Source of the DNA: Candidatus Anammoxibacter sp.
GTDB lineage: Bacteria > Planctomycetota > Brocadiia > Brocadiales > Anammoxibacteraceae
Reading direction: 5' to 3'
Assembly (NCBI GenBank): GCA_021777055.1
Contig: JAIQZO010000102.1
Span: 1 to 64,000, forward strand
Length of the DNA: 64,000 bases
Position 1 is the first letter of the stretch; each line of letters begins with the position of its first letter. This document shows, piece after piece, positions 2,691-46,465 of the stretch. The position numbers were made by a program, and so were the translations under genes. The notes under the pieces were generated by a model. That model was not told the origin of the DNA. It was given only the letters and a program-made list of their open reading frames with translations, and did not search any database.

Positions 2691-3292
2691 GATTATTCAT
2701 GCTTCTATAATTTAAAATGTATTCACGCACTCTGCCGAACTATATTTGCTTTGGTTTTCCTGTCCCCATACAAGAAGGTCCTTGAGGACAGGTAAATAAT
2801 TATAATTACCACTATAACGTAAAAATTTTATAGCGAGGAAAACCTGCCGATTATAGAATTCATTGTTTAAAAAAAAGTAGTAGATATTTTCTTTAACCAA
2901 ATAGTACAGCGTCAACGTTCTAGTGACGGGTATGATTTCTTAAGTCTTGTCCGTTGTTAACTACTCAGGTGGATAGACTGAAGGCTGAAGACTGAAGGTG
3001 AAAGCATAAAGCATAAAGCATAAAGCATAAAGCATAAAACATAAAACATTTTAGGTTGCCAGGCTAAAGGCAAAAAGCAAAAGAAACAGTCTTTTTGCCT
3101 TTAAGCTTTACCTTCAGCCTTCAGCATATCCACCTAAGTAGTTGCTATCTGTTAACAAAAAGAGTTTAGATCACATGGTTATCGCCAATACAAAATAGAC
3201 GTTGTACTAGATTGTTTAAAAAAAACAGAAAAACTTAAAGAGTATAAAGCTACTCTTATCAACAGTGCGGTAACGGGAAAGATAAAGGTTGG

Positions 3293-16355: not shown

Positions 16356-16591
16356 TATAGTATTACTCTATAAAAACTTCTTTTTTAAAAAGATTTTGTA
16401 GTTTTATGTAATACAGAATTCTGGAACCAGGAGCAAGGAGTCAGTAAATCAAAAAGTAAGGGTCGACAAACAGATATAATTTGTATCTATTTCCATTAAT
16501 TAACATAGTGAAATAACTACAAATCTATGCCTTATTCTGACTTCTGTCTCCTGACTCCTGTATTTCAAATTTGGTTGCGGCTTTGCCGCTT
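16356..16591. repeat. interspersed foldback element A
   Basis: TATAGTATTAC...taaaaacttcttttttaaaaagattttgtag...gaattctggaaccaggagcaaggagtcag / ctgacttctgtctcctgactcctgtattt...ggttgcggctttgccgc. Confidence 0.85.
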
Positions 16592-30286: not shown

Positions 30287-30323
30287 AACATCCTTCTCTT
30301 TCTTTTTTATTAAATAATATTTA

Positions 30324-30768
30324 GTAACTATTCAGGGTAATAATGAATAAGAATTCAGGAGTCAGGAAACAGAATTCAGAATGAAAAAACCGGCACGTAC
30401 ATTTCAAGATTTAATAGTATGGCAAAAAGCTCACGAGTTCGTGCTTTTAGTTTACAAGTGTACAAAGTCATTTCCTAAAGAGGAAATTTATAATTTGACA
30501 TCTCAACTACGAAGATCATCAGTTTCAATCCCTGCAAATATAGGTGAAGTTTTTAAGAAAAAAGGTAAAGCAGACAAAGTTCGTTATCTAAACATCGCTC
30601 AAGATTCATTAGAAGAGTCTCGCTATTATCTTATTTTGTCCCATGATTTAAGGTATGGCAACTTTAAAGAGCAACAAGTAGATCTTGAAGAAATCAGTAA
30701 ATTCTTGGAAGCGTATTCATTTTCTATACTGAATTCTGGATTCTGATTACTGTATACCGAATAGTTAC
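30324..30768 (+). mobile_element. candidate S23-gene-bearing foldback element with 10-bp terminal inverted repeats
   Basis: GTAACTATTC 30324-30333 / GAATAGTTAC 30759-30768; 7-bp-period arms gaattcaggagtcaggaaacagaattcagaat and ctgaattctggattctgattactgtata around the ORF. Confidence 0.6.
30381..30746 (+). CDS. four-helix-bundle protein (23S rRNA intervening-sequence / S23 family)
   Basis: TFQDLIVWQKAHEFVLLVYKCTKSFPKEEIYNLTSQLRRSSVSIPANIGEVFKKKGKADKVRYLNIAQDSLEESRYYLILS. Confidence 0.93.
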   Translation: MKKPARTFQDLIVWQKAHEFVLLVYKCTKSFPKEEIYNLTSQLRRSSVSIPANIGEVFKKKGKADKVRYLNIAQDSLEESRYYLILSHDLRYGNFKEQQVDLEEISKFLEAYSFSILNSGF

Positions 30769-30944
30769 AATATTGAATCCGTTAATCTAATAATCTTACG
30801 TTACCATATTCCCTGATTTGTGTCTGACCAGAGAATTAACAATCAACGAAATATACAGCTTTGTAATTTCAAGGCATTTTATATTAGGACTCAGTGTTGT
30901 CCGGTTAGCTATTTGCTTCACACATATGCGTACTAACATTGAGA

Positions 30945-31080
30945 GCCTAAAATGCTAAATTGCTTAAAATGAGCTAAAATTATAGTATTTTATTTATTAT
31001 TACTTAAAAACAACACTATTAACTTTAGGCACTTTAGGCAATTTAGGCAATTTAGGCACTTTAGGCACTTTAGGCACTTT
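30945..31080. repeat. 9-bp-period array (TTTAGGCAC/A) with divergent inverted arm
   Basis: 31022-31080 tttaggcac tttaggcaa tttaggcaa tttaggcac x3; left arm gcctaaaatgctaaattgcttaaaatgagctaaaa. Confidence 0.85.
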
Positions 31081-39732: not shown

Positions 39733-41747
39733 CTACTTCACCTCAACAAACATTCCCCAGGCTAGTCCCGTATCATATGTCTTTTTGTTAAACTCAAACT
39801 GACCCCTGTCATTAGGCACTGCCCATGCTGCCCAGTCTCTACCTTTTCTGGCTGCCGTTATAGTGATTTCAAGTACTCCATTCTCGTCAGTTACACTTCT
39901 TGCCGGTTCAATCTTAATTGCAGACCAAAACCCTTTTCTTAGCAGTGATGATACTTCAATTCTTTTGCCGGGTTCATGATTAGTGAGTTTTAATGTACAA
40001 TTCTCACTATCGCCCAATTTCATATTTAGTTTCTCTAATTCAAGAAATGGACCACGTTTCATGCTATTCTCACAATTAAAGGTGAATGATTTACCTGATT
40101 GTGGTGTAATATTTATTAGATCATTTCTTGTAAGACTATCAGATCCAGGTGAATTTGAGACAGTTAATGTTACAGTAAACATCCCCTCTACCCGATAGGT
40201 ATGTGCTGCATTCTGCTCTATGCTAGCACTACCATCACCGAACTCCCATAACCATCCTGTGGGATCTCCTGTTGATAAATCAGTAAATTGCACATCCAGA
40301 GGCGGTGGTCCCAAGGTCTGGTCTGCAATAAAATTGGCAATTGGTACAGTTCCCACCGGAGGTAAGGTAGTTGTTATGAAACCATCTTTTCTTTCAGTGT
40401 TTGAATTGCCTTCAAAACTTACGGTTAATGACACATCAAAGCTTCCCTCGGCAAGATATGTATGAGTTGGGTTTTGTTCGCTACTGGTGCTACCATCGCC
40501 AAAATCCCATAACCATGTATCAATAGTCCCTATTGATTGATCGGTAAAATTTACAGTTAATGGCACTGTCCCTGTTTGCTTATCAGACGTAAAATCAGCG
40601 AAGAGTGTTACAAGATGAACCTTGCGAATACGGTCGTTAAAATTGTCAGCGATGAATATATTACCTGAACTATCCACAAAAACGCAACGCGGATCATTTA
40701 ATGCAGTAGCTGTAGCAGTCACACCATCACCGCTAAAACCGGTGGTATCATTCCCAGCAACAGTGCTTATCATCCCTGTTGCCCTATCTACCTTGCGAAT
40801 ACGATTGTTCTCAGCAAAAAATATATTACCTAAACTATCTACAAAGACTCCAGTCAGATCACCTAATGCCGCGGTAGTCGCAGGCACACCATCATCGCTA
40901 AAACCACCCGCCCCATTTCCAGCTACAGTGCTAATAATCCCTGTTATCCCATCCACCTTGCGAATGCGATTATTACCACTGTCTGAAATAAATATATTAC
41001 CTAAACTATCTACAAAGACTCCATATGGTTGATTTAAGGATGTTTCAGTCGCAGTCACACCATCGCCCCTAAATCCAACCGCCTCATTCCCAGCCACAGT
41101 GCTTATAACCCCTGTTATCCCATCCACCTTGCGAATACGGTTGTTATTTATATCCGCAATAAATATATTACCTGAACTATCTACAGATAAACAAGATGGG
41201 CGATTTAGTTGCGCTTCCGTTGCCTGACCACCATCACCGCTAAATCCAAACTTCCCATTCCCCGCCACAGTGTTTATAATTCCTGTTATCCCATCCACCT
41301 TGCGAATGCGACTATTACCAATATCAACAAAAAATATATTCCCTGGACTATCTACAATGACTCCAGTTGGAAAGTTTATGAATGCGTCAGTCGCAAGCCC
41401 ACTGTCTCCAATTGCACTCCCAGGGGCTGGAAGCGGCGATGAAACCGGAATCGGTAATCCATTCCCCACAACAGTACTTATGATCCCTGTTACCGTGTCC
41501 ACCTTGCGGATACGATGATTGTCAGTGTCCGCGCGATAAATATATTACCTGAACTATCTACAGATAAACAAGATGGGCGATTTAGTTGCGCTTCCGTTGC
41601 CTGACCACCATCACCACTAAATCCCCTTATTCCATTTCCTGCCAGGGTAGTAATGATTCCTTCAGCGTGAACAGGTAGAGCTATTACCGCATAAAATGTA
41701 ACAATAAATAAGATAAACAACAATGCGCGTTTTACAATAATCGTCAT
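39733..41747 (-). pseudogene. secreted NHL-repeat/PKD protein, frameshifted near the N-terminus
   Basis: ORFs 41490..41747 (signal peptide + first NHL) and 39733..41502 are one gene broken by an extra CG dinucleotide near 41530-41535. Confidence 0.8.
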
Positions 41748-41818
41748 AATGTATCCTTTTCTTGAGTATCTATATTATTTAATTTATGATAAATCAACAA
41801 TTATGTTTATAGACAGTA

Positions 41819-44800
41819 TTATTCCACTTGCACAAACATACCCCAGGCAAGCCCAGTATCATATGTCTTTTTGTTAAACTCAAACTGTCCTCTGTCAGTG
41901 GGCACTGCCCATGCAGCCCAGTCGCTACCTTTTCGGATTGCAGTTATCGTGATCTCTAGTTCTCCATTTTCGTCAGTTATGCTCCTTGCCGGTTCAATCA
42001 TAATTGCCGACCGAAACCCTTTTCTGAGCACTGATGATACTTCAACCCTCTTGCCGGGTTCATGATTAGTTAGTTTTAATGTACAATTTTCACTATCTCC
42101 CAATTTCATAGTTAGTTTCTCTAATTCAAGAAAGGGACCACGTTTCATACTATTCTCACAATTAAAGGTGAATGATTTACCTGATTGTGGCGTAATATTT
42201 ATTAGGTTATTGCTTGTAAGACTATCTGATCCTAATGCATTTGTAACAGTTAATGTTACAGTAAACATCCCTTCTACACGGTAGGTATGTGTTGGGTTTT
42301 GTTCTATACTCGCACTACCATCACCAAAATCCCATAACCATCCTGTGGGAGCTCCTGTTGATAAATCAGTAAATTGTACTTCTAGAGGCGGTGGACCCAG
42401 TGTCTGGTCCGCAATAAAATTGGCAATTGGTACAGTTCCTGGTGACGATAAAGCAGTAATGAACCTCTCTTTTATTTCAGTATCTGAATTACCGTCAAAA
42501 CTTACAGTTAAAGAGACGTCAAAGCTTCCCTCGTTAATATATGTATGAGTTGGATTTTGTTCAGCACTAGTGCTACCATCACCAAAATCCCATAACCATG
42601 TGTCAATAGTTCCTATAGATTGATCAGCAAAATTAACAGTTAATGGCACAGTTCCAGTTCCCTTGTCAGATCTAAATGCAGCTACTGGAGCTGGTATTGG
42701 ACCACTTGCTGTTATAAATTCCAATTTAGTCTCAGTATCTGACCCGCCCAAACCTGTCACAGTTAAGGACACCGTAAAAATTCCTAATGTATTGTAAGTA
42801 TGAGAAGGATTCTGCTCCGTACTTGTATTACCGTCTCCAAACTCCCATGACCATCCTGTTATATCTCCAGTTGACTTATCTGTGAAACTTACGGTTAATG
42901 GTACCGTTCCTGCCTGCTTGTCAGATGTAAATACCGCTACCGGTGCTGGTATTTGATCACTTACTATTATAAATTCCGATTTAGTCTCAGTATCTGAACC
43001 GCCCAAACCTGTCACAGTTAAGGACACCGTAAAACTTCCGGATGTATTGTAAGTGTGGGAAGGATTCTGCGCTGTACTTGTATTGCCGTCTCCAAAGTCC
43101 CAAAACCATTCTGTTATTTCTCCTATTGACTGGTCCATAAAGCTTACAGTTAATGGGACAGTTCCTGTTGTCTTGTCAGATGTAAATGCCGCCACTGGCG
43201 CTGGTATTGAATCACTTACTGTAATAAATGCTGTTTTAGTCTTTGTATCCGATCCGCCAAAACCTGTTACGGTCAAGGATACCGTAAAACTTCCTAATGT
43301 ATTATAAGTGTGAGAAGGATTCTGCTCTGTACTTGTATTGCCATCTCCAAAGTCCCATGACCATTCAGTAATATCTCCAGTTGACTTATCTGTGAAACTT
43401 ACGGTTAATGGCAATGTTCCTGTTGTTTTGTCGGATGTTAATGCGGCTAATGGTAGGGCTGAATGAACCTTGTAGACGAAAAGGTTCGTACCAATAAATA
43501 TATTATCCGAAATATCTACATAGACGCCGCGTGGATTATCTAACTCCGCATCAGTCGCAAGTACTCCACCACCACTTGAACTAACTGTAACACTCCCCCC
43601 CCCGGCCACTGTGCTTATTATGCCTGTCTCCACATCTACCTTGCGGATGCGGTTGTGGTTACGGTCAGCAATAAATATATTACCAGAGATATCCACAAAG
43701 ACTGCTAGCGGTTGAGATAATACTGCTTCAGTCGCAAGTATGCCATCACCAGTAGAAATATCCGTTCCGCCCCCTGCAACGGTGCTTATGATGCCGGTCT
43801 CTACATCTACCTTGCGAATGTTGTTGTTTGTTCTGTCCGCAATAAATATATTACCAGAGGTATCAACAGCAACACCGGACGGGCGGAGTAATTCCGAGTC
43901 AGTCGCGAGGCCTCCATCATCATTAGAATCCTTTGTCCCACCACCAGCGACTGTGCTTATGATGCCGGTCTCTACATCTACCTTGCGGATGCGGTCGAAT
44001 GTTGCAATAAATAAATTATCGGAACTATCCACAAAGATTGACCGTGGACCACTTATGGTCGCATCTGTAGCAAGTCCTCCATCTCCAGCAAAGCGCCCCT
44101 CCCCATTACCAGTCACAGTGCTGATGGTACAGGTCTCTACATCTACCGTACGAACGCGTGAGTTCCCAAAGTCCGCAATAAATATATTACCTGTGCTATC
44201 CATTGCGATTGACGTAGGATTGGATAATGACGCATCAGTTGCGAGTCCGCCATCTCCACGAAATCCGCCTATCCCATCCCCCGCCACAATGGAAATCATA
44301 TTAGTAGTTGCGTCGTTTACTGTAATAAAATCCGTTTTAGTCTCAGTATCTGACCCTCCCAAACCTGTTACTGTCAAGGAAACCGTAAAAATTCCTAATG
44401 TATTGTAAGTATGAGAAGGATTCTGCTCCGTACTTGTATTACCGTCTCCAAAGTCCCATAACCATGAAGTTATATCTCCTGTCGACTGATCTGTATAACT
44501 TACTGTTAATGGCACTTTCCCTGTTGTCTTGTCTGATATAAAGGTCGCAACTGGGACTGGTATTTGATCACTCGCTATAATAAATTCCGTTTTAGCCTCA
44601 GTATCTGACCCTTCCAAACCTGTTACTGTTAATGATACCGTAAAACTTCCTGATGTATTGTAAGTGTGAGAAGGATTCTGCTCTACACTTGTATTTCCGT
44701 CTCCAAAATCCCACGACCATTCACTAATGCCGCCAGTTGACTTATCTGCGAAATTTATGGTTAATGGCACAGTTCCAGTTGTCTTGTCAGATGTAAATGA

Positions 44801-45916
44801 GGCGAAAAGTGGTGTAGGCTGAACCTTGCGAATGCGGTGGTTACCTCTCCCAGCAATAAATATATTACCTATGCTATCAACAAAGACTCCTGTCGGCTGA
44901 TCTAATGCCGCAGAGGTAGCAGGCCCATCATCGCCACTAAAACCAATTGTCCCATTCCCCGCAACTGTGCTTATAATACCTGTTGTCCCATCCACTTTGC
45001 GTATACGGGTATTATCACTATCAGCAATAAATATATTACCTGTGATATCAACAAAAACATCTCGTGGATTATTTAATGCTGCAGCTGTCGCAGACACACC
45101 ATCACCGCTAAAACCAATTGTTCCGTTCCCCGCAACTGTGCTTATAATCCCAGTTGTTCCATCCACTTTGCGAATGCGGTGATTACCAGTGTCCGCAACA
45201 AATATATTGCCTGAAATATCTACAAAGATGCCAACCGGCTGCTTTAAAGTAGCGGCAGTAGCAGGACCATCATCGCTGCTAAAACCAATTGCACCATTCC
45301 CTGCCACAGTAATTATTATACCTGTCGTACCATTTACCTTGTGAATACGATGGCCAGATGAGAAGAAAATATTGCCAGAGTTATCAACAAATACGTCTTT
45401 TGGATTATCTATTGGTGCAGCAGTTGCAGACTCTCCATCATCGACAAAACGACTTTCCCCATTTCCCGCTACGGTGCTTATAATACCTGTTATTACGTCT
45501 ACCTTGCGAATGCGTCTGTTAGCGCTGTCAGCAATAAACATATTACCTGAGCTGTCAACAAAGACATCTCCCGGAGTATCTAATATTGCGTCAATCGCAA
45601 GGCCGCCATCTCCGCTAAAGCCACTTTCCTCCTTCCCCACAACTGTGCTTATGATCCCTGTCGTTCCATCTACTTTGCGGATGCGATGGTTGTCAGTGTC
45701 CGCGATAAATATATTACCTAAACTATCGACAAAGACATCTATTGGGCTATTTAATGACGTTTCAGTCGCAGGGACGCCATCACCACCGAATCCTGCTGTC
45801 TCATTACCAGCTACTGTTTTAATGATACCATCAGCACTAGTATTTAGAACGCCTATCTCATGAAATGCAACAACAAATAATATCAACAACAATGCAGGTT
45901 TTACAAGAATCTTCAT
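41819..45916 (-). CDS. large secreted NHL-repeat/multi-PKD protein (1365 aa)
   Basis: Signal peptide; NHL-like units (GDGVPATETSLNSPIDVFVDSLGNIFIADTDNHRIRKVDGTTGIISTVAGNG); multiple PKD units (WDFGDGNTSTEQNPSHTYNTLGSFTVSLTV). Confidence 0.93.
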   Translation of the reverse strand: MKILVKPALLLILFVVAFHEIGVLNTSADGIIKTVAGNETAGFGGDGVPATETSLNSPIDVFVDSLGNIFIADTDNHRIRKVDGTTGIISTVVGKEESGFSGDGGLAIDAILDTPGDVFVDSSGNMFIADSANRRIRKVDVITGIISTVAGNGESRFVDDGESATAAPIDNPKDVFVDNSGNIFFSSGHRIHKVNGTTGIIITVAGNGAIGFSSDDGPATAATLKQPVGIFVDISGNIFVADTGNHRIRKVDGTTGIISTVAGNGTIGFSGDGVSATAAALNNPRDVFVDITGNIFIADSDNTRIRKVDGTTGIISTVAGNGTIGFSGDDGPATSAALDQPTGVFVDSIGNIFIAGRGNHRIRKVQPTPLFASFTSDKTTGTVPLTINFADKSTGGISEWSWDFGDGNTSVEQNPSHTYNTSGSFTVSLTVTGLEGSDTEAKTEFIIASDQIPVPVATFISDKTTGKVPLTVSYTDQSTGDITSWLWDFGDGNTSTEQNPSHTYNTLGIFTVSLTVTGLGGSDTETKTDFITVNDATTNMISIVAGDGIGGFRGDGGLATDASLSNPTSIAMDSTGNIFIADFGNSRVRTVDVETCTISTVTGNGEGRFAGDGGLATDATISGPRSIFVDSSDNLFIATFDRIRKVDVETGIISTVAGGGTKDSNDDGGLATDSELLRPSGVAVDTSGNIFIADRTNNNIRKVDVETGIISTVAGGGTDISTGDGILATEAVLSQPLAVFVDISGNIFIADRNHNRIRKVDVETGIISTVAGGGSVTVSSSGGGVLATDAELDNPRGVYVDISDNIFIGTNLFVYKVHSALPLAALTSDKTTGTLPLTVSFTDKSTGDITEWSWDFGDGNTSTEQNPSHTYNTLGSFTVSLTVTGFGGSDTKTKTAFITVSDSIPAPVAAFTSDKTTGTVPLTVSFMDQSIGEITEWFWDFGDGNTSTAQNPSHTYNTSGSFTVSLTVTGLGGSDTETKSEFIIVSDQIPAPVAVFTSDKQAGTVPLTVSFTDKSTGDITGWSWEFGDGNTSTEQNPSHTYNTLGIFTVSLTVTGLGGSDTETKLEFITASGPIPAPVAAFRSDKGTGTVPLTVNFADQSIGTIDTWLWDFGDGSTSAEQNPTHTYINEGSFDVSLTVSFDGNSDTEIKERFITALSSPGTVPIANFIADQTLGPPPLEVQFTDLSTGAPTGWLWDFGDGSASIEQNPTHTYRVEGMFTVTLTVTNALGSDSLTSNNLINITPQSGKSFTFNCENSMKRGPFLELEKLTMKLGDSENCTLKLTNHEPGKRVEVSSVLRKGFRSAIMIEPARSITDENGELEITITAIRKGSDWAAWAVPTDRGQFEFNKKTYDTGLAWGMFVQVE

Positions 45917-46296
45917 AACGTCACTCCCTCACATGTAAAGAAAGATAGAGTTCTGTTGCAACTTATTATCTAAATCAACTATTGATTATGATATTGTTTA
46001 AGAAAAGAGCTTTCCTTTGTAATAGAAAGAAGACTTTTTGATATTGTGCATCTTTTTATAATTGTTATAAACGATAAGAAATCAGAGGATTCGCCTATGG
46101 TAATTTATCGGCAATCTAAATGGGTTAGTTATAACAAAAAGGATATGGTTTGTCTATTAGGGGTTTCCCTGTCTTCATTGTAAGGAAATCCCTTACAAGC
46201 CCATTTTATCTTTAAAGAATTCGAGATAAGAAACAGTTGGAACATTTGGGGAAGCGAATTTGTTGTTGATAGTTAGAAGCATCAACACAATTGTTT

Positions 46297-46465
46297 AAGG
46301 TTCAGAGGTTCAGGGTTAAACGGTTCAAAGGTTTATCGAAAATACATTTACTATGCAATGACCATGTTGAGCTGTTATTTAAGGTTCAGAGGTTCAGGGT
46401 TGAAGGGTTCAAAGGTATATTGAAAACACATTTACTATGCGATGACCATTTTGAGCTATTAATTG
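46297..46465. repeat. two-copy ~84-bp direct repeat containing an 8-bp-period GGTTCAGA array
   Basis: aaggttcagaggttcagggtt-aa-ggttcaaaggt-tat-gaaaa-acatttactatgc-atgaccat-ttgagct at 46297 and 46381. Confidence 0.9.

Follow-up and report, generated by a model that had tools for sequence, protein, structure and literature searches.

Among the closest described relatives of the locus analyzed here are the intervening sequences (IVSs) of rRNA genes. In Coxiella burnetii, a 428-nt IVS of the 23S rRNA carries three copies of GACAGAT and one GACAGAA directly before the ATG of its S23p gene, and the authors of that work recall an older proposal that IVSs are mobile (PMC4990558). A relative of the encoded protein from Xanthomonas forms a toroidal homopentamer (PMC4990558). 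Heptamer repeats (TAACTGA) of Beggiatoaceae and cyanobacteria have been described separately, almost only as direct repeats and with S23 unmentioned (PMC4679880). A literature search for S23 together with mobile or inverted elements returned only the Coxiella IVS paper, which is a weak absence, as preprints and most subscription papers were outside its scope. We analyzed a unit with an S23 gene in a 64,000-nucleotide stretch of a Candidatus Anammoxibacter sp. genome (contig JAIQZO010000102.1, positions 1 to 64,000; "the window"). The unit has the layout of an IVS, with an S23p ORF inside complementary ends and heptamers before the ATG, and it is intergenic instead of being located in an rRNA gene.

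Results

The S23 unit of the window

The 445-bp unit at 30324-30768 is bounded by the terminal inverted repeats (TIRs) GTAACTATTC (30324-30333) and GAATAGTTAC (30759-30768), which are perfect over 10 bp, as originally predicted from the letters, and extendable to 12 bp with one mismatch (Table 1). Heptamer arms enclose the S23/PF05635 gene; the ATG at 30381 follows directly on the 5' arm, and the last residues of the protein (LNSGF*) are indeed encoded by the 3' arm, again as predicted. The proposed assignment to the S23 family was confirmed by a score of 114.4 bits against PF05635 (curated cut-off 33.8) and of 107 against TIGR02436 (cut-off 24). S23 is the sole ORF of the unit, which contains neither a Y1 transposase nor any transposase of its own, and the copy is antisense to both neighboring genes. 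RNA folding gave closed stems for this element and for one element from Nostoc (z of -3.7 and -3.4). A lone perfect 10-bp inverted repeat is within chance; its genome-wide recurrence is beyond chance.

Table 1. Features of the S23 unit and of an ORF-less element in the window.
Feature	Sequence	Position	Strand	Remark
Target-site duplication, left	AATATTTA	30316..30323	.	7/8 identical to right copy (locus L004)
Terminal inverted repeat, left	GTAACTATTCAG	30324..30335	.	end common to family-A copies
5' arm		30350..30380	+	heptamers with TCAG/ACAG cores, directly before start codon
S23 / 23S_rRNA_IVP four-helix-bundle gene		30381..30746	+	121 aa
3' arm	CTGAATTCTGGATTCTGATTACTGTATA	30729..30756	+	start of arm codes for final protein residues
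Terminal inverted repeat, right	CCGAATAGTTAC	30757..30768	.	
Target-site duplication, right	AATATTGA	30769..30776	.	
ORF-less foldback element		2956..3145	.	ends and AGGCTGA-type arms as in S23 copies L003/L005 (by eye)

The ORF-less element is flanked by candidate duplications that match at six of eight positions (TGTCCGTT, 2948-2955; TATCTGTT, 3146-3153). Several other repeats were seen in the window. A 9-bp tandem array of ACTTTAGGC at 31022-31080 adjoins the S23 unit, and the same 9-mer also flanks the S23 copies L018 and L019. Noncoding heptamer elements at 16585, 16835, 23579, 23725, and 39665 have the common terminal motif GGTTGCGGCTT(T/C)... and make up a distinct family of repeats that also has heptamer arms. 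At 46290-46461, two 84-bp units stand in tandem, with AAGGTTCA-type repeats that correspond to the unit type of the S23 copies L007 and L017, and long tandem repeats of 171 bp and 255 bp at 40655-45756 apparently code for a large repetitive protein.

Element families in the same genome and a candidate transposase

The 5.9-Mb genome has 27 PF05635 matches, many of them truncated or with stops and a few being fragments of one copy or neighbors. Their flanks reveal several families of elements, recognizable by distinct units: TCAG (the window type), AGGCTGA, GGTTCAA, AGCTCAT, AGTGAAA, CTGGATG, and 9-mers of the ACTTTAGGC type. In the 250-bp flanks of these S23 matches, the period-7 score averaged 12.6, compared with 4.05 in distal controls, and a scan of periods 3-21 showed a clear rise at 7, 14, and 21 only.

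A DNA search of the genome with the ends of family A gave 83 matches, and the 12-mer of the unit ends had 149 near-copies, compared with 37 for the reversed control. A generic TIR/duplication scan over all S23 loci was uninformative, since the periodic arms produce false pairs. Perfect 8-bp direct repeats were found outside 13 TIR pairs, with and without S23 and in some cases nested in other elements. S23 is present in L001, L013, L015, L016, and L021; the 13 also include ORF-less copies of 176-329 bp, a 194-bp copy nested inside L013, and one pair (L140, 101 bp) that has poorer TIRs and does not resemble a heptamer element. The family carries IS66-type ends together with 8-bp duplications in this genome. 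An IS66-family transposase gene (C31:510090-510911; L102) lies between GTATCTATTCAGCG and TTAATTACGCTAAATAGTTAC, which are family-A termini, with about 20 of the 22 terminal bases agreeing at one end. As L102 has no clear target duplication, it may be old or rearranged; a second IS66 copy (L104), whose ends are of the GTAA type, is flanked by a perfect 8-bp duplication. The match of the family-A ends and the 8-bp duplications to an IS66-family insertion sequence suggests that family A is probably moved in trans by an IS66-family transposase.

Heptamer arms accompany S23 genes in many phyla

PF05635 is present in 36 of 40 relatives. With a single-protein query, 75 further S23 loci were collected from Firmicutes, Cyanobacteria, Acidobacteriota, Verrucomicrobiota, Bacteroidota, Ignavibacteria, Desulfobacterota, and others, and cyanobacterial plasmid loci were added. 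Period-7 arms recurred in every S23 set examined. Under a uniform rule, 77 of 121 S23 loci had an inverted arm pair, compared with 0.6% of the distal control pairs, and 105 of the 121 had some arm signal, while 6.8% of single control flanks exceeded the periodicity threshold. The original prediction, to which S23 genes lacking such arms would have been fatal, survived this comparison. Units are mostly 7 bp long and sometimes 8 or 9 bp. Arms belonging to a single element resemble one another much more closely than they resemble the arms of other elements. More similar S23 proteins also have more similar arms (Mantel r 0.41, 0 of 2000 permutations), a result that is descriptive only because related sequences are not independent. 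This relation holds only above about 55% identity and also holds across phyla. A search of phage records for S23 gave no match. At three loci (L070, L071, and L072), which lack heptamer arms, an S23-like domain shares one continuous reading frame with a Gln/Pro-rich protein; this is probably a domesticated, vertically kept form.

The unit consists of a 4-nt core and a 3-nt variable spacer, for example AGTG-gtt, TCAG-gaa, or GTAG-cta. Across 67 heptamer arrays, 450 of the 646 differences between neighboring units fell outside the best 4-nt core (391 +- 6.4 when permuted), and the differences tend to gather in three adjacent positions. Such sparing of the core is expected from recognition of a 4-nt core and not from plain slippage. 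The solved structures of relatives, 2gsc and 2rld, each contain five chains, and the ring protein TRAP reads triplets. By analogy, an S23 ring might read one core per subunit.

ORF-less arrays occur mainly where S23 is present

We also counted arrays in genome samples. In one family, the S23-less genomes had one period-7 array in 660 kb and the S23-bearing genomes 99 in 517 kb, with 0 arrays in 41 kb for one of the five S23-bearing genomes. A genome of another family (G005) had 13 S23 matches and 0 period-7 arrays in 200 kb. Among 120 genomes of the phylum, (TCAGNNN)x4 was present in 27 of 62 with S23 and in 5 of 58 without it (p=1.2e-5, phylogeny ignored). ORF-less hairpins are found mainly in S23-bearing genomes, and their link to S23 is statistical only. 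In G009, the units of four resident S23 arms correspond to common ORF-less families. Long arm-to-arm spans of the same genome, considered as cargo elements, turned out to be separate hairpins around ordinary genes and were rejected. At L276 and L281 of G009, heptamer hairpins extend into coding ends, for example close to the end of an lpxB-like gene and within one resembling miaA.

Empty sites and insertion context

The original prediction had proposed a search for empty sites, and clean ones were found with the joined flanks of four cyanobacterial plasmid elements. An element of about 430 bp (aaaaaGTAATTAACAAATAAATatg) in Trichormus is absent from plasmids of Nostoc linckia and Tolypothrix, whose flanks are about 96% identical, and GTAAT is repeated at the filled site. 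The Nostoc pNsp_a site is empty in two sister plasmids (90-91% identity) and has the duplication TTCTA. On a plasmid of Picosynechococcus PCC 7003 (L161), an S23 element separates cas10 from cmr3 in a type III-B CRISPR operon and is absent in PCC 7002 (L245). In Brasilonema, the Trichormus site is occupied by an independent ORF-less hairpin of 83 bp, and in a Nostoc copy from Peltigera, an ORF-less hairpin is nested in S23. For these cyanobacterial sites, duplication lengths come from inspection by eye, and the likeness between arms and target leaves them partly ambiguous. The empty sites and target duplications show that such elements are insertions, and they exist in forms with and without S23.

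Orientation was evaluated for 101 elements with callable neighbors (taken as plain open frames of 100 codons or more). Both neighbors were co-directional with S23 in 79 cases and both opposite in 6 (p=2.4e-17), the window copy being one of these 6. This sense bias may come from selection for expression rather than from an insertion preference.

In five relatives (L029, L030, L033, L034, and L057), the element lies inside a DNA methyltransferase gene and is absent there in six other relatives. In all five, the methyltransferase frame crosses the S23 gene without a stop, as its +2 frame, whereas the +2 frame is open in none of the 89 other intact S23 genes; in G036, the host frame reaches a stop in the 3' arm. 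As the nearest relatives of these five S23 proteins lie within the group (57-93% identity, compared with at most 52% to S23 proteins outside it), the cases are best read as one old insertion or transferred gene and not as five events. One of them, in G030, has the unit AGTTTTN in both arms instead of the AGTGNNN of the others, so both arms changed together. This overlapping-gene arrangement was seen only in these five among the 94 intact S23 genes tested.

Discussion

A mobile foldback element with a proposed arm-reading protein

We are moderately confident that the window unit is a copy of a compact mobile foldback element that consists of heptamer arms and S23 without a transposase, that an IS66 transposase moves it in trans, and that a ring of S23 reads its cores. 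In the own genome, the IS66-family enzyme would act on the family-A elements. S23, presumably a homopentameric ring as judged by its relatives, would recognize the 4-nt cores spaced 7 nt apart on element RNA or single-stranded DNA and thereby regulate, protect, or target the element. Since most insertions are in sense inside operons, S23 may be expressed by read-through from the host operon. In the RNA, the arms would pair to a stem like the rRNA IVS stem that is cut by RNase III; excision from mRNA by this enzyme is conceivable, the closing stem of the window unit being a predicted one.

More tentatively, and with less than even confidence, we suggest that S23 rings are the arm-readers of minimal foldback elements in many phyla, each subunit reading a 4-nt core, one per 7 nt and with lineage-specific cores, that they drive the spread or upkeep of ORF-less hairpins, and that rRNA IVSs are copies that landed in rRNA genes.

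Alternatively, S23 itself could mobilize or maintain all these elements with the help of host enzymes, somewhat like Avd, the partner of a reverse transcriptase in diversity-generating retroelements, and the IS66-type ends of family A could have been acquired later. This is close to the original hypothesis of a foldback system mobilized or maintained by S23, of which the existence of a real element system with S23-bearing and ORF-less forms, and with arms that belong to the element, stood up. S23 is the sole gene type that recurs inside such arms across phyla, the clean cyanobacterial insertions concern elements without IS66-type ends, and ORF-less arrays go with the presence of S23 and with resident units, all of which would fit a mover. 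We nevertheless consider this role rather unlikely, as we know of no nuclease, transposase, or other catalytic domain in S23, as the correlation with ORF-less arrays lacks a phylogenetic correction, and as, judged from its ends and duplications, the IS66 transposase is the better-supported mover for family A.

It is improbable that S23 is a mere passenger of ordinary MITEs, without any role for the element. The family-A ends would suit a transposase acting in trans, and the decay of many S23 copies could be read in the same way, but a passenger explains neither why one gene type alone recurs in arms across phyla, nor why unit types follow the S23 lineage, nor why S23-less genomes are mostly without arrays. 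We give similarly little credence to the arms being primarily a regulatory site, with S23 binding the heptamers of its own transcript and controlling translation or RNA stability. The position of the 5' arm next to the start codon, its usually purine-rich composition (34 of 49 arms), and the sense bias of the insertions would agree with such control, but inserts that have these very arms and no ORF are numerous and show signs of insertion. A regulatory role could, however, be compatible with the other readings. Chance or simple slippage near S23 genes is practically negligible as an explanation, for although short inverted repeats are common and slippage can make tandem heptamers, the matched-control comparisons and the empty sites contradict it.

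If S23 is indeed the arm-reader of a mobile foldback element, the widespread "four helix bundle protein" gains a concrete candidate target, its own heptamer arms, and the many protein-repeat pairs constitute a natural series for the study of how a short, regularly spaced core is recognized by a ring protein. The element system may also account for the more than 200 heptamer hairpins per megabase in some sampled genomes, and the old question of the nature of rRNA IVSs would be tied to a genome-wide element.

Comparison with known systems

Like IS66-family MITEs and mobile insertion cassettes, the family-A elements have IS66-type ends and 8-bp duplications and lack their own transposase. What sets them apart is the length of the heptamer arms and the presence of a conserved S23 gene that accompanies such arms across phyla, even where IS66-type ends are missing. 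REP/REPIN sequences with their RAYT (TnpA-REP) protein likewise combine scattered hairpins with one encoded protein that serves them in trans, but RAYT is a Y1 transposase and S23 is not. Avd of diversity-generating retroelements is a distant S23 relative and a pentameric accessory protein according to published structures. However, the window S23 stays below the cut-offs of the Avd models (bAvd 29.1 versus 40; DivGenRetAVD 35.1 versus 80), and there is no reverse transcriptase inside the element. The TAACTGA repeats of Beggiatoaceae and cyanobacteria resemble the arms as 7-bp tandem units that are intergenic and often near start codons. We take the STRR of cyanobacteria to be possible kin of the heptamer arrays.

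The rRNA IVSs share with the elements the S23 ORF in complementary ends, the heptamers before the ATG, and a similar length; this kinship, proposed in the original prediction, is borne out by the Coxiella IVS. The accompanying proposal to check the rRNA genes for an IVS gave a negative result: no IVS was seen in the assembled part of the 23S gene of the same genome (model positions 15-2044), which was matched in one piece by the LSU model, and the contig with this gene (C3) carries no S23 match. Whereas IVSs have been described in rRNA genes, the elements reported here lie at operon junctions, in intergenic DNA, and inside a protein gene, and they include ORF-less copies, target duplications, and empty sites. 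The layout of the Coxiella IVS is the same, which makes the rRNA IVSs appear as one special instance, the previously known one, of a general element. What is new is that elements of this build, known earlier only as inserts in rRNA genes, are scattered in ordinary genes of many phyla.
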